Source of the DNA: Dipetalonema caudispina
Taxonomy: Eukaryota > Nematoda > Chromadorea > Rhabditida > Onchocercidae
Assembly: GCA_013365325.1 (NCBI GenBank)
Contig: JABVXV010000038.1
Span: 1 to 64,000, forward strand
Length of the DNA stretch: 64,000 bases
Reading direction: 5' to 3'
The notes under the pieces were generated by a model. It made no database searches and was not told the DNA's origin. It worked only from the letters and a program-made list of their open reading frames with translations. Shown in pieces: positions 1 to 64,000 of this stretch (within the stretch, counting starts at the first letter, position 1; every line of letters starts with the position of its first letter). The position numbers were made by a program, and so were the translations under genes.

Positions 1-160
<160 letters not shown>

Positions 161-1548
161 CTACAATGGTGTCAGGTAGCTGTTAACAATCATTTGTTGT
201 GATAATTTGTGGGCAATCAGAATAACATAATTTAATTTAATTTGTAAAGAACAATGGCGGATAAACTTTTTTTTTGCCAGAAAAACATCGAAAATCTACC
301 AGTGAAAACATCCTGTATAGCTTAATTAGATGACAGTTTTAAAGAAGGTATAGGTAGACATTCGTAATATTCTGTAACCATCATTGATATTCCTCCAACA
401 ATCTCGTTATTTTGAAAAATTCAATTTCAAAATATTATTACATTAAGCAAAATTATTACTCTTCAACGCTTATTGTAACATTTAGAATGTTATTTTCAAA
501 TTGAAAAATATTCACTTCAAGCAAAAGTATTTGTCTCCAGTGAATACGTTTCAATTTTTAGATACTGATAGTTGGCATTTCTGGACATTTTATTTCTTAT
601 AACAATTTTTTTTTTTTTTTTTTTTTTTTTTGCTTTTATTACTTTAGAACAAATTTAACATGATTTGTTATTGTGTCCATAGCAACGACAAAAAAACATG
701 TCGATTGGAAGAAAAAATTAAATTAGGATAGTTTTGCTAAATGTTTTTTCACTTTAGCTTATTTTTAAAAAGTAATTTTTTTGCAATCACTATTCACTTT
801 ACGGTGATATAATTTCCTCCAATCTGTTTTCCTTTCTTTCTTTTTTTACCATCAGTAATTTAATTGTTCATATTGTGTGCATAATTTAGAAACTGATTAT
901 AGACGAAACACTAACTGATAATAATTCTTCAACAAACTTGAATAAGAATGCAATGGAATGTGATAAGATGCGATAGATAAGCTTAATCACAATATAATAG
1001 CCTGTATCTTCGAATTGATCCATGTCATCATCGAGAAATGAGTGATTTTCTAGGAGCTTGTTATTTTGCTACGGATGTTTGTCGAAGATCGAAGATTTGT
1101 ATCATATAGCATTGGCCAATAAAACTTCTATCACAAGATTACACGCTGAGAAGAAATGCTAAAGGTCAGTAATATCATCAATTCAGCACAATTTATTATG
1201 TTAAATGTTATAAGCTTGAAAATTCAGAAAAAAAAAATTCCAAAAATTCTTTTTTACAGTGTTAATAAGAATTTTTGCACTTGAAATATGTATGTAAATG
1301 ATACCTTTGGCAATATTATTATTACATCATACATTTTGCTGTCAATATCAGGCGAATGATCATCATCCGTTACAGCTATCATATCCTATTGTGACATTAA
1401 TATGAAGAGAATTGTGGGAATCACCTAACCGTAAAAGACTTAAATTTTGTTTAAAATTTGATATACAACAGTAATTAAACATATAATGATATTTGAAAAA
1501 ATTCCATTGTTTATTCATGATTTCCGTTTGTTTCTTTCCCAATACCAC

Positions 1549-1582
<34 letters not shown>

Positions 1583-41413: not shown

Positions 41414-44400
41414 ATGGGTAATTCTGGGAGTAAAATTAACTTTCGCAAAGCAGTGATCGAACTTACAACAAAGAAATCGAAAGTGGAAGAGGATGCATTT
41501 TGGGAAGAGTTATGGGCTTCCAATATAAATAGTGCTGCGGATGTTTTTGCACTGATCACAGCAGATGATGTTAGTTTGATAATTCCAGAAATTATTTTAT
41601 CTGGTCAGTAAAGAGCGGAAAAAATTTCTAATAATTATATATTTGAATAAATCTTACAGAACAGATATATGATAATGATCAATAACGTGAGAGAAATTAG
41701 GTTAATGTATTCATTGGATATGATTTTCTTCAAAGTAAATCTTAAATTGTTTCATTTCAAGAATATTTTCAGGTCCGTTCATTGCGTGATAATTCTCCAA
41801 ATAATCTGGCAACTTTGTGTTATAAAACTGTGGATCGAATAACAGCAGCATGTAATTCCCCATCAACCATATCGTCAACAAAGGTATTTTGAATCACTTT
41901 GTTTGTTCTTAAATCCGACCAGAAAATAAAACCATCTATTATGCTAAAATTTAATTTATGAATTGTTTAAATACTCTTATCTGTTATTCCAGAGATTTCT
42001 TTATCCTTTCTAGCATTGTGAAGCTCGTTGGAAATTTCGGCCAAGTGAAGTTTATGCTACCAATCTGAATTATGAAAAAGTTTGAAATGCAATACTTATT
42101 ATGAAGTTTTTTCTGCTTCAAGAACACAAACTCTATTGTTAGGTACTGAATTGTGTACGACTTCTAACAAGAGTTTGTCCATACTTATTCGAAGATTCGG
42201 ATTGGAAAGGTTTTTTTTGGTCATTACCACCTGCAGAAGAAAACGAACAATTTTCCCACCAGCCATTAGCATGCACACTATTATCTGCGCTTACCGATCT
42301 ACTCTTTTGTCCCGAATTCACCGTTTCATCTCTTAGAAGCCATCCGGTACTTTTCGATGCATAAGAAACAATTTTAATGAAAGAGACAAGATATATAATG
42401 ACCGAGCAGAATGTCCTGTTTATCCTTCACTATGCTGTAAGATTGATCTTTAAACCAATCATTGGTTTTTTAATAGTTCCAAAAACTATTTTTTTATTTC
42501 CACATTTTGCTGCGAAATTGGCGAATTTGAAATCGAGAAACTAAGATAGCACTACTGCACTATCGTTTTAATTTTTCAGGGAGGCTCGGATGATTTAAGT
42601 ACAATTGACAGTTGTGAATATATATGGGAGGCTGGCGTTGGTTTTGCGACCAGACCACCCCAAATAGCAGAGCATGATCAGCGAAGGACCGAAATCCTCA
42701 AACTTTTACTCACATGCTTTTCAGAAGTCATTTATGTCCCAGTTATTGGTGAGATTTAAGTCGAAAATGTTTGATTCGATGAGCGTGGTACTACACAGGT
42801 ATAGGAAGTAGAAGGATGTATTTGTTGTTACCAATCCAGCTTTAAAAATTATCAAGTTTGTGGTAGTTACAACTTATAAGACATCTAAGACTTGTGAAGT
42901 CAGACTTGGCTTACGGTGGCGAAGCGTCTTCTTAATTTCAGATGAAAATAGAATGAAATGGATAGCGAGATTTACATCTGCAGAAAATCGTCATGTTCTA
43001 CCGCTTTTCACTTCTCTGCTTAATGTAGTTTGCGCGTATGATCCAGTTGGTTACGGCGTACCTTATAATTATTTACTTTTTACGGACAGCAGAGAACCAC
43101 TTGTGCAGATTGCATTGCAAGTGCTTATCGTGTGCTTGGATAGTGAGACACAGTCGTCTGACAAGGTAAAGATATCTCCAAAAAATTTGGAAGTTAGCGA
43201 TTCAAACCCCTAGTTTGTATATGGGAACCAATTTCAGAAAAACGAATACGCTGACAATTTTTTCATTAATTATTTGTCAAGGATTCATCGCGAGGAGGAT
43301 TTTGAATTCATGTTGAAAGGCATGACTCGTTTATTGACAAATCCATTGGTTGCTACGTATCTTCCGAGTTCTACCAAAAAAATAACATGTCATCAGGAGC
43401 TCCTCGTTTTGCTCTGGAAATGCTGTGAATACAATCAGGTAGTGGTTCATTGTCTTTGTTTCTTTGGCAAGCACGGAACATCCTAATTTGATGCTCGTGT
43501 TCATGATTCTGCACAGTACTTTGGAAACGTATTATTTCAGAAATTCATGTTTTATTTATTAAAAACAAGTGATGTCCTGGAAGTGCTTGTTCCGATATTA
43601 TTTCACGTTAGTGCTTCTCGCAATGATCCAGGTATGAGAAACGAAGTATTTCTAGAATTATTTGTCATGTTAAAGCCTTTAGGAAGGCAAATAAACAAAT
43701 ATGTTATGTTTTTAATGAATATAATTTACAGCTCGTGTTGGTTTGATACATATGGGTGTTTTCATTATTCTATTGTTAAGCGGTGAGCGAAATTTTGGTG
43801 TACGTTTAAATAAACCCTACACTCCGCGGGCAGCTATCGACGTACAGTCATTCACTGGAACACATGCAGATTTGCTGATACTTGTATGTTATCAGAATTG
43901 AACTCTTAAGTATTGATATTTGAAAGTGGATTTAGAGTAATTTGTTATGAAATATCAGTTGTATGAGTAAGAAGAGTCCTTTCATTTTTTATTGTTCATG
44001 TTCTTTTATCTTTTATAACACTTGCTTTTGCTTTTCACGGTTATAATAGCAGTTTATGATTCACTTCCATCCTCACTTGTAGTAACTTGAACTATCGGTT
44101 TTTCGTTCTTTTTTTTTTCTTTTCATATGAATCGTATTAATCCAGAGATCTTCCGTTCTTCAGTACACCGCTTTCAATATTATCAAAGAGTAGCTGCACA
44201 TGTTTATATGAAAGATGCATGCAGAAAGGTTGCAAACTATGCGATATATCCAGTATATATGTGTATGATGAGTGGATTTTTGCAGGTGTTCCACAAGCTG
44301 ATAACCACGGGCAATCACCGATTGCAGTCACTTTTCGACTGTCTTTTAACAATTATTGTGAACGGTTTGTTTTCTATTGCATTGTTAACTGAGTATTAAA

Positions 44401-46395
44401 AGTAACAATAGGATAAGATAAAGACCGTGATAATGAGATAATGAATGAGGTAGTGCGATAGATGACTAGTCTCTTGCAGGATGCGTAAATTAGGAATAGT
44501 ATGGATCTTCATTTACGATTTTGTTTAATGTATGCAGTATTTCATTACGTTTTCTGATGATGGTGAACCTGAACGCCTTACGGAACCTAAAGTCTAACTT
44601 GGGTTTTAGCTTTCTACCTGTTTACTTTGCTTGACTTTTTCTTAAGCCTAAATGTTCATTAGTGACGAAGGCTTAATAGTTTTGTTTCTTTCAGTGTCAC
44701 CATATTTGAAGTCCATTTCGATGGTTGCCGCTAATAAGCTTATCCATCTTATTGAGGCTTTTTCAACTCCCTGGTTTTTGTTTTCATCACCGACGAATCA
44801 CCTTCTTATCTTTTTTCTTCTTGAAGTTCTCAATAATATTATTCAGTATCAGTTCGACGGTATTATTTAACTATAACTTTCCTTTATTCTGAAAGTTTTA
44901 TTAACAAACACTGCAATAATTCTGCTGATGACAAAACTAGTCTAACATGTGATTGGTCTCGGAAAACATTCTGGTCAAATCGATAAGAATGATCTTGTAG
45001 AACGTCAAGTACCAATTACTGGCACACACTTCAGCACTGATGCTTTTTTACCGGAATATATTCAGGAAATTCAAATTTGGTGTATACTATCATTCGAAAG
45101 CGCCAAGTATTTTATCAACTGGCAAATCTTTCGTCTGATTCCGCGTATATCATGAAAATGCTACAGGGACGCAAAGGTCGTAAAAGTGGTGTGGTTGTTG
45201 AATCAAAGTCATCAACTGCTGAAGGAAAACCTGCTAGTGGTAAGTTTTGGTGCACTGAACGTACATTTGTTAGGCAGTTTCATATATATTTTGAATTTTG
45301 GCAGAATGAGAAGTTGCCTGATGTTTTTATAAATTTTCATCAATTATTGTTGCAGTAACCATCAGTAATTAGCAAATGGTTGGATTAGAACAAATTATTA
45401 AACGACTGGTATCGATTTCTAAGGACTGATCTTCGCATGTATCTTGCCTACAACATTGAAGAGACACAGCAGTCTAAGATACATGTACTGTAGTGCTACG
45501 ATGATTATCACTTTATGGACTATAAAAACAGAATTGAATATTGTAGATGTGGAGAAGGCGAACATAAAGGCTACACTGGCTGAGACGCCGCAGGTATCAG
45601 CAATGACAGAAAAAGGAGTGAACGATTTAGCACATGAAAATGATGATGTACAGGAAGGTTGGGTGGCAACAACGGATTGGGTAGAATCCTGGAAAAGTAA
45701 ACTTCCTCTTCAAACAGTGATGAGGCTTCTGCAAGTTCTTGTGCCGCAGGTTGAGAAGATTTGCATCGATAAGTAAGTTTCTCATTTGCAATTAAAGAAG
45801 TTCGAGATTTCGCCTAGGATACTGTAAAGAAATTAGATATTTGGACTCCCAATTTCAATATTCCATCAAGGGATTGGTAAGATAGAATGGAAGTATTTTG
45901 CAATTTGATGTGTCCTGTTCAAAATGAAATGTTGTACTTGCAGAGGTTTAACAGATGAAAGCGAAATCCTGAAATTCCTGCAGCATGGCACCCTGGTTGG
46001 ATTGTTACCCGTCCCACACCCTATACTTATTAGAAAATATCAGGCTAATGCTGGTACCAATCACTGGTTTCGAACGTATCTGTGGGGAGTCATCTATTTA
46101 AGGTATTTCTTAAGCTACAGTAAATCATATTCAACCACGGTTTTGCGAATTAGTATCCAATGTTAAAGCTTGTAAACTGTGGAGATTTAGCATTGAGTTT
46201 TCTTTTCTTCACAAGTTTTATGCAGATCCAAAGGAAAGTTGATTGCTGGTACAGAAAGTTCATTTTTGCGTTGAAACGCATACTCTGTTCATTATTGATT
46301 ATCATTTAAATTATTTCCTTTGTTTTTTTAGAAATATCGATCCGCCGATTTGGTATGATACCGACGTTAAATTATTCGAAATCCAAAAAGCCTAA
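41414..46395 (+). CDS. hid-1: HID-1, dense-core vesicle biogenesis protein
   Basis: Peripheral Golgi membrane protein needed for neuropeptide dense-core vesicle formation in C. elegans and mammals. Fifteen exons: 41414-41569, 41773-41883, 42014-42079, 42143-42346, 42580-42748, 42942-43165, 43238-43438, 43541-43631, 43732-43883, 44286-44364, 44695-44859, 45066-45239, 45547-45772, 45944-46102 and 46332-46395. The sum is 2241 nt, 746 residues, close to the family length. The N terminus MGNSGSKINFRKAVI begins with a myristoylation-type MGNxxS. Family blocks seen: NLATLCYKTV, RLLTRVCPYLFED, LLFCPEFTV, CEYIWEAGVGFA, HVLPLFTSLLN, AYDPVGYGVPYN, SRIHREEDFEF, SGERNFGVRLNKPY, EAFSTPWFLFS, NNIIQYQFDG, SWKSKLPLQTVMRLLQVLVP, DESEILKFLQHGTLVGLLPV and WYDTDVKLFEIQ at the C terminus. 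The Ser/Lys-rich part around 45170-45660 is the variable linker. The small exon 42014-42079 is the least certain. Confidence 0.97.
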
Positions 46396-46651
46396 AATTC
46401 TTATCCAGTTTTTTTAAGGTATTTCTTACGGATGATTGTGCTGAAAAATTTCGTGTCATTGTTTTCGTCGTTGATTGAGGGAAAATTATCTGAAAAAGGT
46501 GTTTGTACTATCTCAGTTCGTCATGTTGCACTTCACTAATTTAACTTTTCACACTAGAAAGTAGATGGTTAATTAATTAATATCATTCCAGATTTTAGCG
46601 ACGTTGAATTGTCTGCCGTTATCGTTATCCTTTGATTTTGTACGTTCAAGA

Positions 46652-46742
46652 TCATAAGATGTGTACCACTAGCGTTGTGTAGTTCCTGGTGATGTAAAAT
46701 GCGGTGTTTTTTAAGGTTGTGCTATATACCATTTTTTTTTTC

Positions 46743-46786
<44 letters not shown>

Positions 46787-47240
46787 ATCCATAATGCGGA
46801 CGAATTCCTTGTAATTCCCTCCTGCTTCAGGAGCTTTTTTTATGGAAATATTTAACAGTTCATTTTCTATATCCCAAATATAATCCGTATCATAACTCTT
46901 TCCAGTGAATTTGAGCAGTCCCTTGCTTATATCGTTAGGTCTAACAGGGTCACATTTTATATCCAAACATTTTTTGCCATTATTTAGAATACTCAGTTTG
47001 ATGTTTCCATAGTTTTGTATACAGGCTTTGTCCTCTACCAAAACAGTATTAGGTTGCGCTTAACTGGCGCGATTCTACATAAGGAATTATCTTTGAAGCG
47101 ACTAGGAGCTTTACTTTCTACTAAAAGTCTTTCGCTGTTTTCTTGTTTTCTCTCCGAAACCCAAAGCCTGTTAGACTTATTGCATATCTATATTTCAAGT
47201 AAAATGTGTTCTTTCCTATCTTCATTGTTTTAAGAATTAC
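46652..47240 (-). pseudogene. Unrecognised coding-like segment with frame break
   Basis: Minus-strand reading from about 47040 to 46780 gives roughly 87 residues without a stop and of balanced composition, including LDIKCDPVRPNDISKGLLKF and SIKKAPEAGGNYKEF. It then runs into an Ile-Tyr repeat made by a (TA)n microsatellite. Just upstream (about 47180-47045), a second frame reads RLWVSERKQENSERLLVESK and so on to NLILF, and the two abut with a one-base frame change at 47042-47045. No signal peptide, clear start codon or known domain is seen. It could be the 3' exons of an orphan gene, with GTAGAG at the break acting as a donor, or a decayed gene of host or bacterial origin. I cannot choose between these. 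Confidence 0.35.
46746..46780. repeat. (TA)n microsatellite
   Basis: Pure TA run of about 35 bp. It adds an Ile-Tyr stretch to the minus-strand frame crossing it. Confidence 0.95.
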
Positions 47241-48221
47241 CTGGCAAGTTTCGTTGAAGCTGCAAGATGCGTTTTAGGTAAAACTTGTACATTCACTGTG
47301 TTGCCAATTTTTTGACTGAAAGTGAATCTTTATGGATGGAGTAAATATGCAGGCGATTTCTGTGTTACGACTGTTCGGTATATGCTGGACTTTTTCTACC
47401 TGAATAATGTCTGAATGATTAATACATTCCCACTTTAATCAACTTGAAGCACTCCCCCAATGCTGATTCTGTATAACTAAATGAGTTGAAAACCGGCTTC
47501 AAATATTTTATGCACATCAAGCCAATAGATGCAGCGATAAACATGTTAAGAAACAAATGAAAAAACGAACATGAGATCCAGAATAAGGGAAGGTATTTGA
47601 GATAAATTATGAATAATGCAAAGGCAAACGCCCGTATTCAAAGAAAATACATTTCTCCAAAAATTTTTACTTGAACGATTTTCCTAGACATTTTGCTCCG
47701 AAAACGTATAAAATGAGCAATACTGCTGTCAGTACAAAAAATACATCACTATGAAGTGATATCGGCAAGACACTAACAAATATTGCTAAGTGCCTGAAAA
47801 GAGCCGTAAAAACCTTGATCAATTTCAGGGCCCAACAAAGCATAAAAATTTTAATAGTTTTACTTTAATGAACAATTCAGTGGGTGTACAGCCGAAAAGA
47901 CAGATTTGCGATGTATTCACAATATGTAATAAATATTAACATTATACTGCGATTACGCAGAACATCACATCACGAGATTAAGCCACAATCCTCTTGTCGC
48001 ATCTCTCAATTGGCAGGTATATTTTCAACATTATAAGTTTCCATGTATTAACTAGAAAACAGAAGGCACTATTTCACTAGCTTTAGGCCAAGTACTTGCC
48101 AAGGTCTCTTAGTTTTGATCACGTATTTAATTTCCTAATGCTCCAAATATCTCGATCCTATATGTGGTGGCATGAAATTGAGTGAATGACATTTACTTAG
48201 TAACAACGATACCACTGACGA

Positions 48222-51200
48222 TCACCACGGCCAGGATGGACCCACCTGATTATTAGCTGCTGAACTTCCCCCACCACTGTACGGTGGCAAACTCATAGGC
48301 CGTTGCGCATCTTGGCCAACAGCAGGTGAAGAACTATCAAAGAAATCCGAATGTATGCTAACACTGTGTGGACTACGTGGCACGGGTGTTCGTAGCGATT
48401 CAATTGGAGAATCCATTATAGCACCTGAAGTATATTCAGTCATTTACCCTTATATTTTATTTTTATTAATTGTTCTAGTGTAAAAACATAAACTGAAAAT
48501 ATACAAAATGAATTAAGTGGATATCAAGTTAAAATGAAATTACCTATATGGAAATTGAGGCTCATTGCTGGTGAAACAGACATCGCTGTAGTTGCAGGCA
48601 CCGTTGCTGAAGATGGTCGTCCGATGTTCAGAGAATTTGTGGTATTAAGAGAGGAAAAGTCCACTAACGAATGTGGATGTGTTTGTTGCGTTGCTTCAAT
48701 ATGTCCAGCCGCTTGTGATTGACGATGCTCGTTTTGAGATCGAGATATATCAGACAGTGCGAATTCGGAGATGTTTTGTTGAGGTAATACATTGGCGGCA
48801 ACAGCTCTGTTCAAGCTATTCGATGAATTATCAACTAGTTCTGACGATGGAATTGGTCGAAACATGTTCTCCATATTTGGTTGTGTCTGCTAAATCAACA
48901 AATCCATGAAATTCAATGATGACTTTAGGAACAAAAATGAAGTGTACAGCTTAATAATGATGCAGAGCACTAGATTTGCAATGCAATATTTTCGACGTTA
49001 CTGAAATGCAGTTAAAGGTTCACATGGCAGGCATCTTTCACGATCTTCAAGATCTTGACACAATTAGATGATCTTGTGCTGCAGCAATAAGTGGTAAGAG
49101 TCTGCTACTGTATGCAAATGACGCTGGTCAAAAGCTGTATTAGGTTCAAAAAATGACTTGTTCAAAAATTTACTAAAAAAAAGCCTAGCCTAGAATCAAC
49201 TGTGATGTCTTTGCATCCTAAACCTAAATTATGACGCCCCGGCTTTTCAAAGTAAAAAATATCAAATTTAATAGATTTTAAAATGGACTAAAATGGCCTG
49301 AAGCGCAAAACAAAACGATAATCATAACATTCAAACCTTAGCCTGTGCAGCAAGCTGTGCCAACTGTTTCGCACGACGGTATCTTCGTCTATGTTGTTTA
49401 CCACTGTTCGAATTGCTATGATGTTTCTGAATATGTTCCTTCAACTTATCCCGCCTTGAAGATGAATAATCGCAGTTGTCACATCTAAATATCGTTTAAA
49501 TCAGTACAAGTTCATTTAGCTTATTCCCATCGAATGAACTTAATTTAATTTTGAAGGTCACAAAACTTGCTTAAAAGGTTTGTCCTCCAAATGTATCCTT
49601 TCGTGTCGCACCAAATGTGATTTCTCAATAAACGAACGATTACATGTCTTGCAGTGATGCGCTCTGACCGCTAAATGCGTTCTGGAAGTGATAAAATTCG
49701 TTAAACCAAAAATTATAAACAAAAATTGATAATCGAATAAGCTGTGCCAAACATTCCTTTAAGATCAAGCTATATTTATTTACTGAATGTAAAAGGCTTT
49801 TCATTAAAATTACTTTCGATGACTTGCTTTGTTGTCCCAAATGTCTTTCAGTAACATTTTTACAAGATCTTAACTACAAGCTTTTAAATGTGACTGGTAT
49901 TGACCTTAAAACGTACTCCACGCTTGAAAATTTTATCAAAGACCTGCATTGAAATGTCCATCCGAGTACACCTGCGAGAAATATGGTAAGTACTTCAATT
50001 CCTTTAGCTCTTAGTTAGCTTAACTAATTTAGTTTGTAGTTTAACACAAATTTTTTTTTTATTTTAGGGGAAATCAACTCATGATTTCTCTGAAATTTAG
50101 CGCCTCCTCCTCCCCCCTTAACGTTACTCTAAAAACAGCGACAGAAAGCTGTATTCCATCATTAATGCCATTATGAGAATTTTACATCTGATGACTTACA
50201 GATACAAAAAAAGATTAACAAAAAATTTGTCAACAAAAGTGATAAAAAGGAATTTGCGAAGCTAAATAATTTTGGTTCTAAATTTCTAAAAATATTAAAC
50301 TTTACCTTAAATGTGCAGCAAGTTGACTTTTCTTGGGTGATGAATAAGTACACTCTTCATAGTGACAGTGGAAAACATCACCCGAATGGATACGCCGATG
50401 AGAAATCAGATGGCTTTGATACTTTGTCGAGAAATCACAATGGAGACATTGATAAGGTCTATAAATAATGGAAACTAATTCTGTACTCCTATATATGATA
50501 CACAACTGAGAGGTAACAAAAGAGAAATAAGTTTTTCCACACTGAGCTTTAAAGAAGACGATACCTATTTTCGGAATGTGCAGCGACATGCTGATCTAGA
50601 GTACTTTTCATTGCAAATGCACGACCACATTCGGAACAATGAAAAGGCTTATCAACGGTGTGATTGCGAATGTGGCCAATAAGATGATTTCTTGAGCGGC
50701 TTTTGTATTCACATAATGTACATTTAAATGGACGTTCATCAGCTGAAACAAAATTTTTCCTTACACAATTCGAATTTTCTCTTTACATGAGTATTCACTA
50801 AAACTTTTCAAAGCTAACGTTAACCTACGAAGAATTGAATATTTTGAGATTGAAAGAACCATTTGATTTTTGACTAAATAACAGATTAATGCACACGGAC
50901 TTACAGTGTGTTAAGCGATGCGAAAGTAAACTTTGAATGGAATCATTGCCATACTGACATATATCGCATCGGAAAGGCGGACCCTCAAATTATCAAAAAA
51001 ACTTAGTATTAAATAATTCATGTCAAGCAGCGCCTTATGCTGCTCATTAAATCTGTAGTTTGCAGACATTGAGACAAATGTCGAATACATGTATATTATC
51101 CTTCCTCTCTAACGGAAAACTACTAATCGAAGGAGGAAAAAAAAGAAAAGAAACACTCTCAAATCAGTAACTCTTGAAACACATACCGGGAAATGTGTTT

Positions 51201-54200
51201 TCATATGTTCATAATAATCACGATTCCAACGGCATTCATAAACGCAAAGAGAACAAACATATGCAATGTTTCGAGTATGTGCGCGTACAATATGATGCTT
51301 GATGAGAACCGCAGCTGAACTTTTGTATGCACAGTAGTCGCATTTGAAGAGTTTCTCAACAGGTGCACCGTTTGTTTCGCCATTCGCCTCATTATCAGAT
51401 TCATCCTGTTGTGAGCACGGATCAACTTCATCCGCTTCATCAAATACAACCTGTAAAGACGTTTTCAAGTTCAATAGATTCTATTATAAACCCATACGAA
51501 GACATTTACAAATCATTATTTTCTTTAGTATAAAAAACGCTTCCAAAAATCTCAATTTAACAGGTGGAAATCTACCTGTTCATTAAGATCAATTCTGCAG
51601 TCTGGATACAATTCTTCACCTACTGGTGTCTCATCTGCTTTTAAAGCTTCCGCCCGGACAAAACTTTTATTCTTTGGTGGTCTACCTCGCCGTTTTGCCA
51701 GAACTTGGTTTGCTGCAGTTATTGATTTTCGATATAATTTGTGACGACCGGCAGCAGCTGAAAAAAAGCAAAAGAAGTGAGCTTCTGATCGTAATTCTTA
51801 CGCATCAATAGGTATAAGAGTAGAAAAAGGGATAAAAGCAAATGAAAAGTTAGTTTCAAGGGAAAAAAATATTTCCTTGAAACCACAATTTGTTATATTA
51901 TGCCACAATATGAACGTAATAAAAAGAACAATAAAAACCTATTTTAACACCAACAAACCTAAAAGACGGTTTTTCCGATTCAAAATATTCATCGCATTTA
52001 AATGAATTTTCAGTTTCAAAGCTGGACGAGAACCATCATTTGTCCCTGTAGGATTAAGCTGAAACCAAAATTTATAACTTGTAAATAGAATGCAAAATGA
52101 CATTTTACCTCAATACATAGTCTATAAATTCATTCCACTGTTGTTACGGGAAGAGAATTAGTGTAAAAACAATATTTAAACATAAAAGTTTCCATTACTT
52201 TATGCTACAGTTCACAATAAAATTTGATGAAAGCAGAAGTTCCAAAATTAATGATGCTGAAAATCAGTGAGTAAAAGTCGCAATTACCACTTCTTCAGTT
52301 GTTGAAGCACCAATTACAGGAGGTTGTCCAGTTTCTTCATTGTAATTTGATTGCGTCTGCACTTTGTTGGTATCCGTTTCATGAGCTTCATCACCAATTC
52401 TTCCACTCTGCGAACTTCCACCCTCCGATTTTACACTGTAACTACCTTTTTTAAAACATCAAAAAGACACCTAAGCAAGGTTAATCATTATCTTTTATTT
52501 CAATTCTGGATTTATTTCTTGGGCAGTTCTGTGAAATAGGAATAAAAATGTTGCATTTATGATGCAAATTTAATGAAAAGCATTTAAGCTTCATAAATTC
52601 ATACTTCATCGCGAAGCCAGTCTCTCCTTGCGAAATACCACGCGATTGTGGTTGAGACTGTGAACTGGTCCCATATGTCAGGTGGGCATCGTTATAAAAA
52701 ATCGTTCTTTCATTGCCAAACTGAGCAGTAAGAGTTCGATATTGCGCCTGGTATTTCGCCATTGGCATTGAATGTTCCCACCTTTGAATATAAATAGTAT
52801 AGATCTAAGAAATAACACGAAGTGGTACATGTTATCAAGGATGCGGAAGACACGCATTCGTGTCAATCGGATTCTATATTTTACCGCGTCCACGAGTCAA
52901 TTGCAAATGAATGCAAAGGATGGAGAACACGATTTGGAAATACTTACGTCAAACGTAAAGAAACACCCCAGTTTTCTAATGTTTCAATATAATCGCAAAA
53001 TTACAGATGTAATGAGTAGCTGTCATGCAATGCTTCTTTTCTGAACTAACAGTGCAGCTTGGAAAACTTTTATAAACTATGTGGAGTATTTCCACATTCC
53101 ATGCCAGAAACTACTTAGAACCATTCAAATTTAATTCGAAGAGTAAAACAAAAACATAAGAGAGCTAGAATCATACATCATTTGCATTAGTGTATATCGT
53201 GCTGCCTGAGAGTTGATAAGGAAAGACGAATAGTCCAGCAAATACTCCAAAGTAGCGGATTGAACCGAAGCAAACGAACACGAAGCTAGCATATCCTTGA
53301 AGAGAGAATCACGCTGCGTTGGATTATGTCCAATCCAGTGAACTATTAATCTAAACTTAAAGTGTATGAAAATTTATTAAATATAAAAAATCCGTATGAG
53401 GGAATAAATTTCCTTTTAAAAGAGACAAAGCTGCCAGTAGAAATTAACAGCAGAAAGCTGAATACACAAATTCGTTAATGATTCTCGGAAATGAAATGTG
53501 ATTTACTTCAAATGGACATCAGGGGAGATAGTATTGGCATATTTTGGCTCAGACAGTAACGCATTCAACTGAGCTAACGAGAATTCGACAATATCGGTGC
53601 TTTCCAGCAAACATCTGTTGATATTAACATCGAAGAAATCGCATGCACTCTTCAGGAGAGCCGGTAAATTATATTTTAATGCAAGCTCCTTCACTGATAA
53701 ACAATTAGCTGAATCCATGTAACGGTCCAAATACTCCGCACAATAATTTTTTACTCGTGTTATCTGAAACAAAAAGGAGAACAATAGGTTCTGTTCCGAA
53801 TAATTTTTATAACTGTAATTCGTTAGCTGGGATGTAGGGTTAGTCAACAAAGTACAACAGCCATATGCCAGAAACGCAAAAATAATGAATAATTTAAAGC
53901 AAATAGCAAAAATAATGAATAATTTAAAGCAAATACAGTGTATTTTCTGAAATCAAAGAATAAATTAACCAGAAAATTATTGGCGAGCTTCAGTAGATCC
54001 ATTACACTACTGCGATCGATGACAACACTTCCACTATACATGTAATTGAGCAATAGTTCAAAAACTGCAGGATTCTGACAGTTCACGGTCACCTGAAATT
54101 AAGTTGCAAAGATGACATTAATAAATACGCAGCGAAAGCCATACTGAAAATTAAACTATAAATATAATATGTCGTTGCAGCAGGACTAAAAATCCATTTA

Positions 54201-54661
54201 AAAAAAAAGAAAAAGATGCATACAGTTTTCTGCTTACATTGACGTAGCAAGTATCAGTTGATCCGTAAATGACAAGTACTTTTATAACTCATATATCTTA
54301 TATGGTGCATGACCGGTACAGCAATTATCTCAATTTTCCCTCGCATACAAACTAATGAAGAAGTTATGGCAAAATGTTGTTCAGTGTCAAAAGCACGACT
54401 GTTCGAATCGACACAACAAACCTGTTCTTTTACAACTTTCGAATTCCTCAAGATTGAATCGAAATATGGACTGCACGCCGCAAGGATATTTCGATGTGCA
54501 CAAAAGTGACGATCCTTAACGACAATGTATACATCACAAAAACGTCCCGTATCACGCTGATAACGTAAGCGTTCCAATATGACATTTCCGTGCTGATCCG
54601 TAAATGACATCGGATTCAAGCTTCCATTCCCATCCTGTGCACAAGTTGACAGCGTTGTCAT
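48222..54661 (-). CDS. eor-1: EOR-1-like BTB/POZ transcription factor with nine C2H2 zinc fingers
   Basis: Nuclear DNA-binding factor; C. elegans EOR-1 is the PLZF-related BTB plus nine-finger protein that acts with Ras and Wnt signalling. Sixteen exons: 54661-54422, 54092-53970, 53763-53507, 53350-53177, 52781-52605, 52435-52288, 52058-51959, 51757-51576, 51450-51187, 50983-50905, 50742-50565, 50458-50306, 49681-49571, 49484-49337, 48889-48544 and 48424-48222. The sum is 2883 nt, 960 residues. Order: BTB ([20 protein letters not shown]), a BACK-like helical region, a polar linker, an AT-hook-like [10 protein letters not shown] in the eighth exon, an acidic stretch, nine C2H2 fingers from FKCDYC to FKCDNC, and a Ser/Gln/Pro-rich tail. 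The junction 49571/49484 needs a GC..AG intron; this restores the linker KPFKC in frame. An in-frame Met at 54733 could extend the N terminus by 24 residues. The eor-1 name rests on architecture and finger count. Confidence 0.85.
53876..53935. repeat. Exact 30-bp tandem duplication in an eor-1 intron
   Basis: The 30-bp unit starting GCAAAAATAATGAATAATTT occurs twice back to back with no mismatch, within the intron between the second and third coding exons. This implies a recent duplication. Confidence 0.92.
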
Positions 54662-55640
54662 TGCTCTAAATATTTTCTTTAATTTCGTTATGGCCCAATA
54701 CACATCAATACTGTACGCCACCGAAAAATCCAAATCTATCTCTTTTCACTTAAAAACCGAAATTCTATGTATTCACAAAACTACATCTAATTCCGAAATT
54801 CGAAAACTACCAAACATAGATTCAAGTTGCAAGTTATCCAAATCAATCAAACGTGACTTCCAATATATTTACCAACATCGAGGGACCAGAATGCAGAGGA
54901 AACAACAGCTTAACGTTGGAGATAAGTGGGAGAGCATGAACAACCAAACGCCACTAAACGATTGCTTTTAATGATATTTGATTCAACTGTTCGACTTAAA
55001 TATATACATATAAAAGAACTATGATGAAAATTTGCATACAACATTAAGCTTTATGGGGTAGTAGAGTTATTTTGCATGTTTTTCTAACCCTGAATTACTC
55101 TCAATCATTTCTACCACTATCATACCACTAATCCAGCATGGGTATCAAAGAAATGTTCAATTCTTAACGTTATGCTATTAATTCTGTGTTCTTTAATCTT
55201 ACCAACTTATTGATGTCTCGTCCCTTTAAATAACTACATTTCCAAATTCATCCAGCCTCTAACTCAAGCACTTCAGAACCTCACGTAAGCGTCCCACTTT
55301 CCGTCATTAACTTTGCGGGAACACGTCGTAGCATCCCAATGTGCGCAACGAAACGTGAAACGAAATATGAATAAGAATTTGTGGTTACGTTGGTGAACTA
55401 AGATTTTGTGGTTTATTTACGAGTCGATTTTGTTGAAAGTATAGTGTCAGTGGTAGAGAAGGCAATATCAATTTTGAGAAGAGAATGCAGGTTATCATGA
55501 TAACGATAACATCAGTCATTGCAAGATATTTGAAGATTAAATCATTGAACAAAAATTCTAATACATTTGTACTTACAGCCCATTTGCAATAATGATAACA
55601 TCAGTGAATTTATAACGGTAATTGCGAAGACTGCATCAGT
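54662..55640. other. Divergent promoter interval, eor-1-like (-) and dehydrogenase (+)
   Basis: No gene seen. The two genes are transcribed away from each other, so this 1 kb probably contains both promoters. The part at 55220-55400 is slightly more GC-rich. Confidence 0.55.
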
Positions 55641-57391
55641 ATGAAGGTATTCTTTTTCCTTTCATTATAGGTCATCTTCAATTTGTTGAACTATATTAGT
55701 CTTGGATAACTAATGTTAGAGTAATTAAATTCAAGTTGATAAATATAGTGGGGGTTAAGAAGAGGGAGCATTTTACAAATTTTCATCTGATTGATCAGTT
55801 CCTTAAAATTTTAGGAATTGTCGGATATGTCAGGATTTATAACTTTTTTAAATGATATCCTTTTTTCTTCTTTTAATTCCTATAACGTCAATAAACCATC
55901 CTTTTTCCTCTGATTTATGAAGGAATTTCACTACTAATTTGTTATTTTATAGAAAATTGAGGATGCATAACATTGATATAAGATATGATGTCGGAATGTA
56001 AGAAAATCCTGCGACACTGTAATTCAAATGTTTGAACCACGCTCATTAAGTTTTTTCAGTGGGACTTTGAAGCTTTATGGCAATTTTGTGCACTTTTTAC
56101 AGGAAGCAGTAGCTTTGGTAACCGGTGGAGCATCAGGTCTGGGTAAAGCGACGGTCCAGCATTTACTGAAGCATGGTTTCAAAGTTGCCATGTTGGATCT
56201 TCCATCTTCAAATGGTTCTTACCTGGCGAAACTGATAAATCAGAATTGTTTATACGTACCAGCCAATGTAATGTTCAGTTTTAATCAGAATCCTCAATCT
56301 AACATTTTCAAGCTTTAAATATCGTCTTTTAAATGTATAACAATTAATAATAGTGATTCAGATAACAGTTGATGAGGAAGTAAAAAATGGTATATTGAAA
56401 GTAAAGAATAAGTTTGGGCGTTTGAACGCTGTGATCAACTGCGCCGGGATCTCTTTCAATAGTAAAACGTTCAGCTTCAATAAACAAAATAGAACTCAAA
56501 AATCGACAGTAGAGTCGAAGTTAAAAAAAGTGTTAGAAGTGAGATTTTTCTTCCGTATTATTGGGTCTTTCGTATATAGTGTGATTTAACTTTTACTGTA
56601 ATTTATTTACTGTTACGCCTTAATGTATAAGTTCTGTGACTAATATAAAACTTTCTTATGTATTGCAACATTCCCTAATGTTTATTGTATTTTGTTTACT
56701 TTTTCCATTAAGGTAAACGTTGTCGGGACATTCAATGTTATTCGACATGCACTGGATTTAGTGACACAAAATGAAAAAGATGAATCGGGATGTCGAGGCA
56801 TTGTTATCAATACGTCATCGTTCTCATCGTTTGAGCCACAGTTTGGGCAAGCAAGTTTTTAAATTTGCGGGATGCCGATTAGATTCATTCTGGGAATCAT
56901 TTCTGATTAACATTAATTTCATTGAATTAAGTTCGGCTTACTGTTGTTATGGATTCTTTGTTAATGTGCAAGTCGTCTTATCAAGTGATAACCTTACCTG
57001 TAGCAGGATTTTAGGGATTTGATGCGATGTCTTCTGGAGCTTTGAACAGTGCTACATTAGCTTTAGCAAAAGATCATGCCTCGGATGGTGTTCGATTTGT
57101 CACAGTTGCACCAGGCATTTTCCGGACACCTTTGGTGATTTCCCATATGAATGAATTGGTAATTAATTCAAGAATTTTCAGACATTCATTCTTAATTTTA
57201 TTATAAACGGAATATCGAAAAATTAAACATCAATTTTATAGCATATGGAAATATATGAAAAAATGGTGGAACTTCCTGCGCGATTGGGCATGCCAGAAGA
57301 ATTTGCTGCTCTTGTGCTGCATGTCATTCAAAATAGTTACTTGAATGGCGTGGTCATTCGTCTAGATGGTGGTCTTAGGATGCCACCATAA
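55641..57391 (+). CDS. HSD17B10-like short-chain dehydrogenase, copy 1, active-site residues lost
   Basis: Short-chain dehydrogenase paralogue of about 259 residues. Exons 55641-55646 (only ATGAAG), 56103-56267, 56362-56538, 56713-56850, 57015-57158 and 57242-57391, all in phase 0. The cofactor motif TGGASGLG and the INCAG motif are intact, as is the C terminus [17 protein letters not shown]. The catalytic region reads [11 protein letters not shown] where copy 2 has [11 protein letters not shown], so the YxxxK tyrosine is Asp and the lysine is Ser. The Ser in the INTSS motif is still there. The frame is open throughout, so this looks like a pseudoenzyme under selection rather than a decayed copy. 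The fourth-to-fifth junction uses GC (GCAAGT) as donor. The two-codon first exon matches the end of the short first exon of copy 2 but is the weakest part; a start at an in-frame codon near 56028 is the alternative. Confidence 0.82.
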
Positions 57392-58051
57392 ACTGTTGTT
57401 CATTAGGTAGATCTATGAATTATATCTCAATTTCTTATTCATTTTCAGACTTGCTTGCATGATGTGTGTACTGATTTTGTTTTGTTGTTAATGTTAACTG
57501 TCACCATTTTTTTGCTTTTGACTTCTATTAATCGATAAAATTAGTGAATCAGAGTGTTGATTTACTTATTCATTGTTTGTCGATCGGGATTTTATCATAT
57601 TTGAAACACTAACACATGGATTATCGATCTTTGCAATAATTTTAAAAATTTTGTCAAATGAATTTGAAAACTCAAGAAGAACTTTTGTAAAACTTACGTC
57701 ATAATTAACTAACAATTACCCTGGCAATTGATATTTTGGGCAATGGAATCGAATTTCCATCCTGTTGCTGCTGATTCTAGTTTTGTTTGTACCATGCTCG
57801 AGCAAGGTTGTCTAATCACTTATAATAGAGAGGCTGGGATATGGACGGACCGCGTGTTTTGTCGTAAAATTTGGTTGGGCTATGGGTCATACAGATTTTG
57901 TATAGAATTTGGTCCGTTCAATTGGTAATCATTCTGGTTTGTTGCAAGGCTAAGCTTAATTTATATTGGAATTTAATGGGAATAGGTATGGAGATATCGA
58001 TGAATCCCTGCTGAGGTTATTTAGTTGTGACTTCAACAAGTTGCTTTGCCC

Positions 58052-58086
<35 letters not shown>

Positions 58087-58579
58087 TTTCCCACTTTTAT
58101 TTCTTTAGTTTTATTTGGTTTTCTCATTTATGATCTTTGTGGTGAAATCGTGAAATGGAGAGTACACCGGAATGATTGCTGCTATTATGTATACTGCTCG
58201 TAGAAGGTGGTTCGATGTTATTATACTCTCCCACATGTCTTGGTTTTCGAATTCTGAGTTAGGTCACGTGAACGGATAAACCTGGATAGAAACTTGATTT
58301 TTTCTTTTTTAATGGTTAGAGAAGTCTCATCATTTGACTAATTATGTGCTTCTATGGTATCCTGGAACGAGAAGCAGTAGAGTACTATTTGTTTGCAAGG
58401 TCTTGATGATTTCTTTCCCTCTGATGATTTTCTTTTTATCTTCTTCGTTGTTAATAGTCGATATCATTACGTTTGTAATTTAAATTTTATTATTGCTAGT
58501 AAATAAACCCACAATAAATAAGTCTATGGTTAATCTTCCGACCACTTGTCATTTAATATAGTTTAAGATACTGTTAATT
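57392..58579. other. Intergenic DNA between the two dehydrogenases
   Basis: Non-coding as far as I can see. Holds a poly(T) run at 58054-58084. A short open frame at 57743-57928 has no recognisable similarity. Confidence 0.5.
58054..58084. repeat. Poly(T) tract
   Basis: Uninterrupted run of about 31 T residues, about 500 bp from the ftsK fragment. Confidence 0.9.
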
Positions 58580-59010
58580 CACATATACTTGTTATGGTTA
58601 ATTATTCCATATTTTCCTATTAGCAGTAAAAAACTGCTATAGATAACGAACGCATTTTACAATTTGGAGATTCGAATAAAGCATAGCATTACAAACTCTC
58701 GTTCTTTGTTTGGTAGTTCTATTCCCAAAGCATTTTGTCCACGAATTATTAAAATTCGTGCAAAAACTGCACTCAATGAACGTGCAATATCTTTTGCAAG
58801 ACCAATTACTCTTGCAGATTTTGTGCCAGCTTACGGTTCAAATTTGTATAAAGTTACAACTAGACCATAACACACATTGATAATTTTTTCTTGCATGCTA
58901 AAACCATTAAGAACCTGTTCCAATAGAGAAATTTTGGTACTCGAAGGTTTCTTTCAAATCTATTATTCTGACATACTTTGGTAATGGTTTAGATTCAGTC
59001 GTCTGGGGCC
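58580..59010 (-). pseudogene. ftsK: Fragment of a bacterial ftsK gene (probable Wolbachia-to-nucleus transfer)
   Basis: FtsK is a bacterial DNA translocase for chromosome segregation at division and has no nematode counterpart. One minus-strand frame from about 58965 to 58681 reads the conserved FtsK block just before the Walker A motif: LLEQVLNGFSMQEKIINV, VVTLYKFEP, a TAA stop at 58828-58830, then [20 protein letters not shown], then [20 protein letters not shown]. Typical alphaproteobacterial FtsK has VVTLYEFEP, GTKxxRVIGLADDIARS and IGIELPN at matching spacing. A frame change near 58680 continues as LFESPN, again FtsK-like, before resemblance fades near 58600. Upstream (58965-59010) another frame reads KPLPKYV, plausibly the linker. 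The Walker A and B motor is absent. The stop and frame changes show it is non-functional. No host exon overlaps it. Confidence 0.9.
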
Positions 59011-59191
59011 GATAAAAATTTTTTCTTCCTCAATTTATGAAATGAACCTAGCTTATAGTGGGCAGTTAGGATTGCAGTTAAAGTACTCGAGATTGATAAC
59101 GCGTTGTGTTATCGAGTCGAACAGTGGACAATTACCATAAAAAGGTAATGCCCACAGATCCTGTTATTGTCCGAATTCGTCATTAGAAAGA

Positions 59192-59206
59192 TGAGTATTG
59201 TTGCAG
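59192..59206 (+). promoter_or_regulatory. Probable trans-splice acceptor of dehydrogenase copy 2
   Basis: The sequence ATTGTTGCAG ends 14 bases before the ATG at 59221. A 3' splice site with no usable upstream coding exon, placed just before a start codon, is what a spliced-leader acceptor looks like in nematodes. Confidence 0.5.
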
Positions 59207-59220
59207 GTGTGGCATAAACT

Positions 59221-60699
59221 ATGGCTACATATTTGGCTTCGGTGAAGGTATGACTTTCAGAAGTTATATATTTATCATTTCTCCAAATATTTTGATTTAT
59301 TAAGTTAGCATATTAGCATAGTATTCGTTGCCCTTTTTCAGGGTATTGTGGCATTAGTTACTGGTGCTGCATCTGGCCTTGGAGCTGGTACAGCACGACA
59401 TCTTCTTGAACATGGAGCCAAAGTGGTCATTATGGATTTGCCACAGTCGAAGGGTGAGGCACTGGCGAAGGAAATGGGGCAAAATTGCATATTTACTGCG
59501 GCTGATGTGAAATTTTTAATTTCCAATTTTTAGTTTTTGTTGTGGTGGAATTACCGCAATAAGAAAAGTGATGATTTGTAGATTAAACGAAATTTGAAAT
59601 ATACTTCTTATTTGAGCATCATAAATATAAAATAAGCATTTGTTTCTGCCTAATGTTTGAAGTGAAACTAGGTGTTCAATTTCCAGGTGCGGTCTTCAGC
59701 TGAAGTATCAAGTGCATTTCACACTCTGATTAATAAATTTGGACAATTGGATGCTGTTGTAAACTGTGCTGGTGTATCATATCCATTCAAACTGTACAAC
59801 TTGCAGAAGAAGAAAGCCTGTGATGCAGAACTCATTCATAAAACATTCGATGTAATAACTTCCTTCTGTATTTAATCTTTATTCACTCATCAACGTACGT
59901 AACATTTTTCGAGTCTTCTTCTTACTTGGTTGGATTTATACTAATCGGGAAATACTGGATGGGTGTAAGATCGCAGTGAATGAAGTTTCCTCTCTTCCAG
60001 TATTCCTATGTATTTACTTTTAGGTTAACGTTTTCGGTACTTTCAACGTTATACAGCAGGCTCTTGAAACATTTGCTCTTAAGAGCAAGGACAGCTTGGG
60101 TTTTCGTGGTGTTATTATCAATACAGCATCTACAGCAGCTTACGATGGACAAGTAGGACAGGTACATCATTTGTTAAACTTTTGTTGTATTTCAAGAAAG
60201 TTCTGTGGAAAATGGGCTATGAATGGCAAAAACAGGTAGATGATATAATATTTAGCAATTTCTTTAATTTTAAAACATTTAATACCATGATTCATGTCAT
60301 TTTCTCGTTGTAGAGTGCTTACGCAGCCTCCAAAGGAGCCATTGTAAGTGCAACGCTTGCGTTTGCTCGTGACTATTCTGAGGATGGAATACGATTTATG
60401 ACGATTGCACCGGGACTTTTTGACACTCCACTGATGAGTGGGCTTCCTGAAAAGGTAACAGTACACTATACATTATTACTTGCCAATGATTAATAAATGG
60501 AATTTGTCTGATTGTTATTTTGCAAACATTATTGATGATTACGTTCCAGGTACGAACTTTTCTAGCCGACATGATTCCACTCCCTAATAGGCTGGGTAGC
60601 CCAGAAGAATTTGGCGCTTTGGTGCGTCATATCATCGAAAATCGGTACTTGAACGGAGAAGTGATACGTCTTGACGGTGGCTTGCGGATGCCTCCCTAA
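59221..60699 (+). CDS. HSD17B10: HSD17B10-type 3-hydroxyacyl-CoA dehydrogenase type 2, copy 2
   Basis: NAD-dependent short-chain dehydrogenase; the family acts in mitochondria on short branched-chain 3-hydroxyacyl-CoA (isoleucine breakdown) and steroids. In vertebrates it is also a subunit of mitochondrial RNase P. Exons 59221-59247, 59342-59506, 59687-59851, 60024-60161, 60314-60454 and 60550-60699, all phase 0, sum to 786 nt, 261 residues, the same length as human HSD10. Motifs: [10 protein letters not shown] (cofactor loop), MDLP after beta 2, VNCAGVS, the INTAST catalytic Ser segment, SAYAASKGA with Tyr and Lys intact, APGLFDTPL, and the C terminus [17 protein letters not shown]. Its splice sites match those of copy 1, so the two arose by tandem duplication. 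Copy 2 should be the active enzyme. Confidence 0.95.
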
Positions 60700-61428
60700 G
60701 TCTGTAATATGACATCTATTCGAAACTTACCCTATTCTATAATTAGGATAACAATCGAAAATAGTGAAGAGAAGGAGTCACATTTTTAAGTAATATTTCA
60801 AGATAATATTGTGAAACTAACCGTTATGCTATATATCCATCCACTTTTTCAAGAATTGTTTGTTGTTTGTTATCCGGTGAGCAGTTATTTGTTCATTGAC
60901 ATTCATTTTTTCAATAAGCTTTTGTAAAGTTTTTGTTCATTTTGTCTTGCAGAAATGTTCTGCTCAGCGATTGTTACATATATACGTTGTTAATTTGTCA
61001 TGTTGGAATAAAGTTTCAAAGTTCGAATCACTTTTCTTCTTGTTATAGTCAAAAGTTATGCTTCTTTGCAAACAAGTACTTTTCATTTCAATATTTAATC
61101 GCTGAAATTTCAAAAGTGCACATAACATTAAATATTCAGAGCACTAACCTCACTGCTTGTCTTCATGTGGTATGAGAATGTTGTTAAATTATAGGATCAA
61201 CAACATGATTGCTATTAGTGTAGTGAAGCTTGATTTAATCAAAGTGCGGAGTGTACCGGAAGGATCGGTAGTAAGAAGCATATAAAGGGAGCCCTTTTCG
61301 CTTATCTGGTTATCTGTAGTTATTTCTTATTTTTTGATGTGTACATTTGTTATTGTGGCATGCCTTGTTCTTAGATGTCTCTTGTACAAGTATTTCCTTT
61401 TTTCTTTCCAGGTTGGTCGACATCTAGG
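60700..61428 (+). other. Short dehydrogenase-to-WAPL interval
   Basis: Non-coding. Contains the 3' UTR of the dehydrogenase and ends in the splice acceptor before the WAPL start. The gap of 729 bp between same-strand genes is compatible with a nematode operon. Confidence 0.5.
61394..61411 (+). promoter_or_regulatory. Probable trans-splice acceptor of WAPL
   Basis: TTTCTTTCCAG ends 17 bases before the ATG at 61429. It is either a spliced-leader acceptor or the end of a 5' UTR intron. Confidence 0.5.
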
Positions 61429-64000
61429 ATGTCGAATATATCTTCAAGCTGGAAGACTACGCGTCGTTATGGCGAACCATCAAAAAAAGATAAAGCAGCT
61501 GCGCTTTTCGATTCCGTATTTGCCAATCAACCAAAAGCATCTACTTCATTAGCAAGACCTCCAGATTTGAATCCGTAAATTTTTGCCTAGCCATTGATTT
61601 TGTTCACAATTATTTGCATATATTACATCTGATAATAAAGGAGCTTCTATGAAGGTTGGGTTCGAAACCTGATGATTCCCTTGATTTGGTTGCACTTTGA
61701 AAATTCCAAAACCTCTGTAAGGTTTAAGGAAGTAACACAGAAGATGTAGAAACCAGGAACTTCTCGACTTTTGAAGTTTTCAAAGTTGGTGGGTTTGGTT
61801 CATGGGATTTCAAGCCGCACCAGTTGCAATAAAGAAGACACAATTTGATGTATTTGATGTTTATGACATAAGCGAAATACGCACAAATTTCCAAGTCTTT
61901 TTCTTGTCTAGCTCATCGAAACCTGCATCTCCGAAGCGGGATCAAGCTCGTAGTGAAGTAAGTACACCAAGTCCATCAAGCAGCTCGTTTCTTTCACCGA
62001 CAGTCAGCATTCCAGACTTCGAAAAGGTTTGTTTCTAAATTATTGTTTGCTTTTCAAAATATCCCATTTGTAATATCAGAATTATTACTTCTATTTTTTT
62101 CAACAAAAACACAAGCGTTCGAAATAGGGAATGAAATTTTTGGGTACACAAGCTTACATTAATACTGTCTTTTTTTTACATTGAAAAAAATAATTGTTCG
62201 ATTCGTGTATGCAGTGGGGCAACATTTTTATATACTGAGACAATTATGTCATCAGTGATTTTAACGTTCACTTTTAGAGTAAGCACATGGGTTGTATGAA
62301 AGAGATTCAGACCTAGTTTTCGCATCACTTTATTATTCTATTGCGTGAGTAGCAGACCAAATATATTTCCGTTTGCAGTCCGATGAGAGCGACGAAGAAG
62401 AGAGCAGTGGTAATAAGTTTGGAAGTAATCATTCATCGACATGCATGCTAAATATTTCCATGACGCATGCGACAATTTCTGATGGTAAATCCTCTAGTTC
62501 ATCACCTGTCAAGCATTCTTCTGAATCAGATGCAGATCGACAAAAAATTGGAATCCCCAAACATCATTCCACTGAATCTAATCCGCAACGCGGTGATGTT
62601 TTTTGCTTCGAAATAGAGGATGAGGAAGATGAAGACACTGAAGATAGTAATGAGATAGCCCCTCAAGCAAAACGCGCAAGACCGGAAGAGGAATGTACTA
62701 GTTCTCAAGGTGAGACGTTGTTGTTATGGATAGGTTCGAAGTTTTCACTACTAAAGTAGTTTGTGATGCACTGATATATGAATTTCCAAAATAAAGTAAA
62801 GTGTCTTGCCGATCTTATTCTGCAGCCACGACAGCTTAGACCTAATTATAATAATTAAGAGAATGACAATTTTTTTTTTCACTGATCGAAATTTTTAAAT
62901 CTATAAACCAATATATTATAGAAAAAGTGCCTGTTATTTCAGAAAGAATAAGAAGTTCTGGAAAAGGATATACTCTGGGTATTAAAGCGACGTATAAACA
63001 CAGGTGGATGTTGGATGACGATGATGATACTGACGATGTTGAGTTGCATTCGAAACATTCAGATACTGGTTTAATAACTTCTAAAGCAGAAGTATTATTT
63101 GTTTTCGTAATTTAGTTGTAATGCTTCGTAGGTTACGAAGCTGTTGCTACTCAGATTCCCGTTTTAGGAAATTCTTATTGGCTGGAACAAATTATTGTAA
63201 GCAAAGAATTTTTCGTTTGTTGCTTAAACATTTTAATGCTTAAATTACTGAATTATCAGGACGATGGTTCGGTTACTCAAGCAAGTGTAAACAGCACTGG
63301 TCCGTCAGGTAATAGGAAAGGCGATCGGGCACATGTTTGGATTCGAGATGTTAAGGAAGCACATGAATGCTTAAAGTCTGGTGAACAGGATGATTTCAGT
63401 GACGATGTGAAATATATTTTGAGTACCCTTTTGGATCCTTCATCATCGAACAATCTGAAATGTTTAAGGTAATGAAATTTTGCATGTTTTTTTGGTATGG
63501 TTAATGTCTTTTCCGTACTTCCAGACTGATTAGTGTATGAAAGAAGTTTCACATCATTAACAGCCTAAAAAGATTCATCACCTTCGATTTGTCGTTTGTA
63601 TTCCTTTTTCCACAATTTAGCGTCATATCACTAGCGAAGAAGTGTGTTTCGAGCGAATTCCGGCGATTTTTCCGATCTAACAATTTGATCAGTCAGACAC
63701 TGAAAGCAATTCCGGACTCGCCAAAATCACCAGTAATTTAGTTACCAGTCTCATATTTTCAATAAATTTAGCATTTTAAACATTAAGATTTAGAAGAAAT
63801 TGTTTCAGTGGAACATATAATGCACTTGTGAGGCAGCATGCGGTTTTCATTCAATTGAATGATCACATTTCAGAGTTTGGCACTTTGTGTCTCAGTGGTT
63901 GTTTATTTGTTGTCTCGCGACACCACTTCTGTATTCGTTGATGCATCTGCGCTCCGTTTGTTCAGTCAACTGTTAAAATTAGAACATCCAAATCCGAATG
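61429..64000 (+). CDS. wapl-1: WAPL cohesin-release factor, N-terminal part (runs off window)
   Basis: Wings apart-like protein, which with PDS5 opens cohesin rings on chromatin. Exons found: 61429-61574, 61912-62026, 62379-62709, 62922-63091, 63260-63468, 63621-63732, and 63874 onward to the window end, all in phase. The N terminus MSNISSSWKTTRRYGEPSKK has the basic start followed by an FDSVF motif, as in other WAPL proteins. A long acidic Ser-rich unstructured part (62379-63060) follows. The conserved WAPL domain then begins: DDFSDDVKYILSTLL matches FTDDIEYLLSGL of vertebrate WAPL, CLSVISLAKKC matches CLSVISLATKC, and YLLSRDTT matches YILSRDR. The rest of the helical domain lies beyond 64000. 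The junction 63091/63260 was chosen because it keeps the WAPL domain in frame. Confidence 0.93.

Follow-up and report, generated by a model that had tools for sequence, protein, structure and literature searches.

We analysed a window of 64,000 nucleotides from the filarial nematode Dipetalonema caudispina (C321:1-64000), drawn from an assembly of 78,057,119 bases in 764 contigs. Within this window, which is free of N and belongs to a 370,683-bp contig, a short insert resembling Wolbachia DNA lies between two worm genes of the HSD17B10 type, about 1.03 kb past the upstream gene (gene 1) and 276 bp ahead of the likely ATG of the downstream gene (gene 2). The insert consists of two adjoining segments, here called A and B, whose limits are given in Table 1 together with those of the neighbouring genes. 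A preliminary description, made from the sequence alone, had placed an eroded fragment of the bacterial gene ftsK at 58580..59010 with host sequence on both sides. The host flanks were borne out, since exons of both genes lie on the one contig, whereas the extent had to be redrawn: the ftsK sequence begins at about 58652, its DNA homology is firm to about 58942 (G016 being the only one of 41 genomes in which it reaches further), and 58419-58651 is a second Wolbachia piece.

Table 1 Features of the insert and of the neighbouring host genes (positions in the window)
Feature	Position	Strand	Basis
Host gene 1, HSD17B10-like paralogue with active-site Tyr and Lys replaced, upstream neighbour	56109..57391 (approx.)	+	tblastn exons, relatives
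Segment A: 3' end of an Oxidored_q2-family gene, intergenic stretch and first 16 codons of rpoD	58419..58651	-	DNA match, gene neighbourhood, Pfam, translation
Junction of segments A and B, with about 5 bp that could not be assigned	58647..58652	-	alignments and translation
Segment B: Wolbachia ftsK fragment	58652..58945	-	Pfam, protein and DNA matches
2-bp deletion between these bases, breaking the ftsK frame	58680..58681	-	codon alignment
In-frame stop TAA in the ftsK fragment, a sense codon in eight living Wolbachia aligned	58831..58833	-	open reading frame end, alignment
Possible extra ftsK sequence, homology uncertain	58946..58980	-	protein match; one genome (G016) to 58970, others end by 58942
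Host gene 2, HSD17B10-type (3-hydroxyacyl-CoA dehydrogenase type-2), downstream neighbour	59221..60699	+	phmmer, exon positions

The assignment of segment B was examined against contig C650 of the same assembly, which looks like symbiont DNA remaining in the host assembly and carries an ftsK gene that is open across 709 amino acids. The DNA match to C650 corresponds to about FtsK residues 238-336, covering the alpha domain for the most part and reaching just into the motor-domain match; in Pfam, the alpha domain spans residues 216-317 and the motor domain starts at 325. This agrees with the minus-strand block ahead of the Walker A motif that the preliminary description had proposed, given the position that we presume for that motif in FtsK. 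Scanning with hmmscan detected FtsK_alpha (PF17854) in two minus-strand stretches, one that passes the Pfam cut-off (58657-58830, E 5.9e-7) and one that falls short of it (58831-58953, E 0.0017); the minus-strand frame at 58907-59029 was without a Pfam match. Furthermore, a protein search of the worm's own genome with the 709-residue FtsK returned two matches, C650 itself and 58681-58980; the latter aligned with residues 227-326 at 66% identity (E 3.1e-33), and its one-frame reading contains four stops. The protein match and the PF17854 hit together constitute the significant FtsK similarity on which the preliminary description had made its proposal depend. At the DNA level, the ftsK piece was matched by 39 of 41 genomes of the genus Wolbachia, the best being wOo (85%, E 1.9e-83); this count excludes the ftsK stretch of wDcau (G019), the resident symbiont, whose ftsK was represented by C650.

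Segment A was recovered when positions 56000-62000 were searched against eight Wolbachia genomes, all of which matched ftsK and six of which gave a second match at about 58419-58648. Among the 41 genomes, 34 matched segment A (one over only 47 bp) and 40 matched at least one of the two pieces, with DNA identities for segment A, in BLAST blocks, of 86% to wDcau, 84% to wDi and 79% to wOo. At the counterpart of segment A in wOo and wDi, a gene for a small membrane protein ends and, after an intergenic stretch, a sigma-70 gene begins; Pfam assigned the wOo genes at this locus to Oxidored_q2 and to Sigma70 regions 1.1, 1.2, ner and 2; we take the first gene to be MnhC/MrpC-like and the second to be rpoD. 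The start codon of rpoD lies at 58465-58467, from which the translated insert reads MISTINNEEDKKKIIR.

To gauge chance similarity, we tiled the 64 kb with 254 windows of 525 bp and compared each of them with 13 named Wolbachia loci (not whole genomes); four windows scored 128-311 bits, all overlapping 58419-58945, and the next-best window scored 39 bits. Comparison of 44001-64000 with four whole Wolbachia genomes returned segments A and B and nothing else. The same comparison of 4001-44000, with no positive control within the stretch, gave 25-bp and 24-bp exact matches at one spot only, and positions 1-4000 were covered by the 13-locus control only. The spot in question, 40152-40176, is identical to wOo over 25 bp, matches on the other strand too over 24 bp and is probably a simple repeat.

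Positions of the two pieces in three Wolbachia genomes indicate that the insert, about 527 bp long, is composite, with parts from two Wolbachia loci. The wOo counterparts of the pieces map to 164 and 326 kb and those of wDi to 720 and 874 kb, and in wDcau rpoD lies at 207 kb and ftsK at approximately 60-62 kb, the latter extrapolated from C650. Because the pieces are thus 146-162 kb apart on the same strand in all three, and because their order in the insert is opposite in gene direction, the insert would not represent a single collinear stretch of any of these chromosomes. The same composite would nonetheless result if the donor chromosome had already carried both pieces side by side and one contiguous fragment had been inserted. 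The donor lineage is unsampled, and a deletion on the circular chromosome or some other rearrangement could give the order seen in the insert, although a simple deletion would need to remove about 0.7-0.8 Mb; since the spacing and strand relation of the pieces are alike in wDcau, wDi and wOo, and strong synteny is described for C and J genomes (PMC8116671), we consider such a donor fairly improbable. Two independent insertions at neighbouring sites would also place the pieces together, but they meet within about 5 bp, are similarly identical to living strains and, in our judgement, would be unlikely to land so close by chance in a 78 Mb genome, which makes this explanation improbable as well.

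A further concern was that living symbiont DNA had been wrongly joined into a worm contig, because at least one symbiont contig is present in the assembly. The host junctions of the insert are continuous at the assembly level only. C650 (14,924 bp) is 99.5-100% identical, over a comparable 5.3 kb, to the 863,427-bp single-contig genome of wDcau, the supergroup J Wolbachia of D. caudispina according to the genome report (PMC8116671). Several long open genes, including ftsK, occur in these 14.9 kb of near-wDcau DNA. That report gives the host assembly as 81.6 Mb in 2615 contigs, and the smaller assembly analysed here may lack small contigs. The insert differs clearly from the resident symbiont: across 281 aligned columns the identity of the ftsK piece is 83% to both the resident and wOo and 81% to wDi (85% to the resident ftsK in the BLAST block), and the corresponding figures for segment A, across 221-223 aligned columns, are 81% for both the resident and wDi and 79% for wOo. 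Taken with the BLAST blocks, identities of 81-86% to the resident rpoD region and ftsK argue strongly against a chimeric assembly, as a divergence of 14-19% is too high for DNA of the living symbiont. Moreover, the insert carries a stop codon and a deletion where the resident ftsK is open, and a chimera would require a second wrong join next to the first. We therefore rejected a chimeric origin, which on these grounds is hardly credible.

The preliminary description had noted one internal stop and frame changes at both ends of the fragment. A single stop was confirmed, and the frame damage that could be placed was a 2-bp deletion. Differences between the insert and wDcau fell at codon positions 1, 2 and 3 in the numbers 18, 10 and 19, compared with 6, 1 and 21 between wOo and wDi (Fisher p 0.0044). 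Sites private to the insert (n = 20) were distributed 9, 6 and 5 over the codon positions (p 0.023 against wDcau-wOo), and of the 18 private changes that were classified, 16 alter the amino acid; as a set, the private changes look unconstrained. Several observations temper this pattern. The contrast with the wDcau-wOo pair (10, 3 and 19) is not significant (Fisher p 0.11), and the measure based on private changes is biased towards positions 1 and 2, since living strains differ from one another at third positions to begin with; the five changes private to wDcau itself (3, 1 and 1) all alter the amino acid. The case that the insert is a pseudogene is made by the lesions more than by the substitution pattern.

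A functional ftsK acquired horizontally by the animal was considered and rejected, as only about residues 238-336 of 709 are present and the frame is broken. We saw no sign of function in the insert. Its position 276 bp upstream of an HSD17B10-type gene would suit a role in the promoter of that gene; position is the one feature that speaks for such use, and with a broken ftsK frame and substitutions lacking clear constraint, we regard it as very improbable.

To place the donor, trees of both pieces with full-length ftsK were built from 29 of the 41 genomes plus the insert (29 of the 34 with a segment A match, leaving out G024, G027, G032, G033 and G037), with 58663-58943 as the ftsK part of the insert. 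These place the donor in the clade formed by supergroups C and J, with support of 99-100 for the grouping of C, J and the insert, and thereby bear out, along with the matches in 39 of 41 genomes, the earlier attribution to a Wolbachia-type ftsK. Within the clade, the insert grouped with wDcau (ultrafast bootstrap 94-98, approximate likelihood ratio test 76-80). In the approximately unbiased (AU) test, a position as sister to J received p 0.91 and one as sister to wOo p 0.044, and G017 (0.0008), wStur (0.021), wLbra of supergroup D (0.009) and wOc of supergroup F (0.0005), each tried as one representative, were rejected as sisters of the donor; the Shimodaira-Hasegawa test alone leaves wStur (p 0.064). 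Extending the insert beyond its firm homology lowered its identity to wDcau to 79% and lengthened its branch, with the same nearest neighbour. Site patterns were counted over both pieces: at 17 sites the insert agrees with C and most other strains and the resident alone has changed, at seven it agrees with the resident against C and most others, and at five it has the state of C where the resident (J) and most other strains have another. By these counts the insert predates much of the divergence of the resident itself.

On this evidence, the donor is most likely an early branch of the J lineage. Those five sites weigh against it, as do the AU values for a position basal to C and J (0.33), as sister to C (0.33) and as sister to wDi (0.084), over which the position next to J is not significantly better. 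A donor that branched before or at the split of C and J, of the kind suggested to have been the earliest symbiont of filariae, is accordingly a less likely but appreciable alternative. If it were true, other filariae of the group would be expected to carry the same composite in the spacer between their HSD17B10 genes, and the insert would serve as a fixed marker of how old the symbiosis is.

Collectively, we are confident that the insert is a nuclear Wolbachia transfer (nuwt), in which fragments from upstream of rpoD and from the middle of ftsK were joined at one host intergenic site, derived from a C+J donor and decayed since. This upholds the suggestion of an old nuclear insertion of symbiont DNA, for which the FtsK match, the host genes on both sides, the divergence of 14-19%, the lesions and the nesting within C+J all argue. 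In the proposed sequence of events, two fragments of a Wolbachia chromosome would have been joined end to end and captured at a single intergenic site, most likely while a double-strand break was being repaired through end joining; the donor Wolbachia would have belonged to the C+J clade and would most likely have been an early representative of the J lineage that the worm still harbours, and the inserted DNA would then have decayed.

The insert belongs to a well-known class and adds one more case to it. A survey of 22 filariae (Vancaester et al. 2025, PMC12693587) counted 74 nuwt regions in D. caudispina, described, like the present insert, as short decayed Wolbachia pieces in filarial chromosomes. 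Its text names nuwts derived from J for D. caudispina and nuwts derived from C and from J for neighbouring species; its authors argue that filariae once had an old C-like infection and that the ancestor of the ONC4 group carried J. That survey relied on hidden Markov models of protein-coding genes (E < 1e-30), by which, according to its authors, non-coding pieces go undetected. Because segment A is mostly non-coding, it would probably be missed there, and with it the composite nature of the insert; segment B may be among the 74 regions. The Brugia malayi nuwts between Bm1_46245 and Bm1_46250 (PMC3849323) are reported likewise to be adjacent and to come from different genome regions, but they involve another species and other donor genes, and stage-specific transcription is described for one of the two. 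The Wolbachia fossils of Dictyocaulus viviparus (PMC4046930) are similarly presented as decayed, co-assembled with nematode DNA and read as relics of a past infection, whereas D. caudispina has a contig of a J-type symbiont in its own assembly. Among the open-licence papers listed by our literature searches, we recognised no description of the present composite.

The insert is thus one more fossil of an old Wolbachia infection, with no second copy found, and the two HSD17B10-type paralogues around it make its site easy to recognise. Scoring related filariae for the insert could therefore date the infection relative to host splits, and its composite structure shows that surveys of coding genes can overlook part of an insert. 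Wolbachia-like pieces of 75-100% identity also occur elsewhere in the worm genome. Those found with 19 kb each of wDi and wDcau and with 9.9 kb of C650 as queries, shorter or weaker pieces not being listed, suggest insertions of different ages; they are 55-323 bp long at 78-100% identity and lie at C333:333018-333340, C16:2135-2322, C19:6075-6255, C124:46099-46215, C99:402501-402555 and C664:226900-226964.

Concerning the host genes, the best phmmer match of gene 2 is PDB 7n09 (E 2.1e-105); its exons were located by tblastn, and the first exon and splice sites were judged by eye. Gene 1 has close relatives, at 76-86%, in Loa, Brugia, Wuchereria, Cercopithifilaria, Setaria, Litomosoides, Dirofilaria, Onchocerca flexuosa and Thelazia. 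In place of the active-site motif SAYxASKG, whose Tyr and Lys are catalytic, gene 1 reads GFDAMSSG, with Tyr replaced by Asp and Lys by Ser. Both residues are missing in all eight relatives aligned (Loa, Brugia, Cercopithifilaria, Setaria, Litomosoides, two Dirofilaria entries and Thelazia), among 13 filarial or Thelazia matches listed, so that gene 1 looks, from its sequence, like a conserved inactive paralogue beside an active gene.

The insert had also been described as sitting inside a tandem duplication. It does lie between two paralogues. Apart from the resident ftsK on C650, no second copy was found in the assembly, and thus the insert was not duplicated with the gene pair. The idea that it forms part of a duplicated block was rejected for this reason and because gene 1 has close relatives in both Setaria and Thelazia, so that the genes probably duplicated before the insertion and independently of it. 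The filarial association with Wolbachia is modelled to begin after the Setaria branch, as set out in PMC12693587, and the gene 1 duplicate probably predates the association so modelled. The spacer between gene 1 and the insert contains a run of 31 T at 58054-58084 (read by eye), about 335 bp from the left end of the insert.
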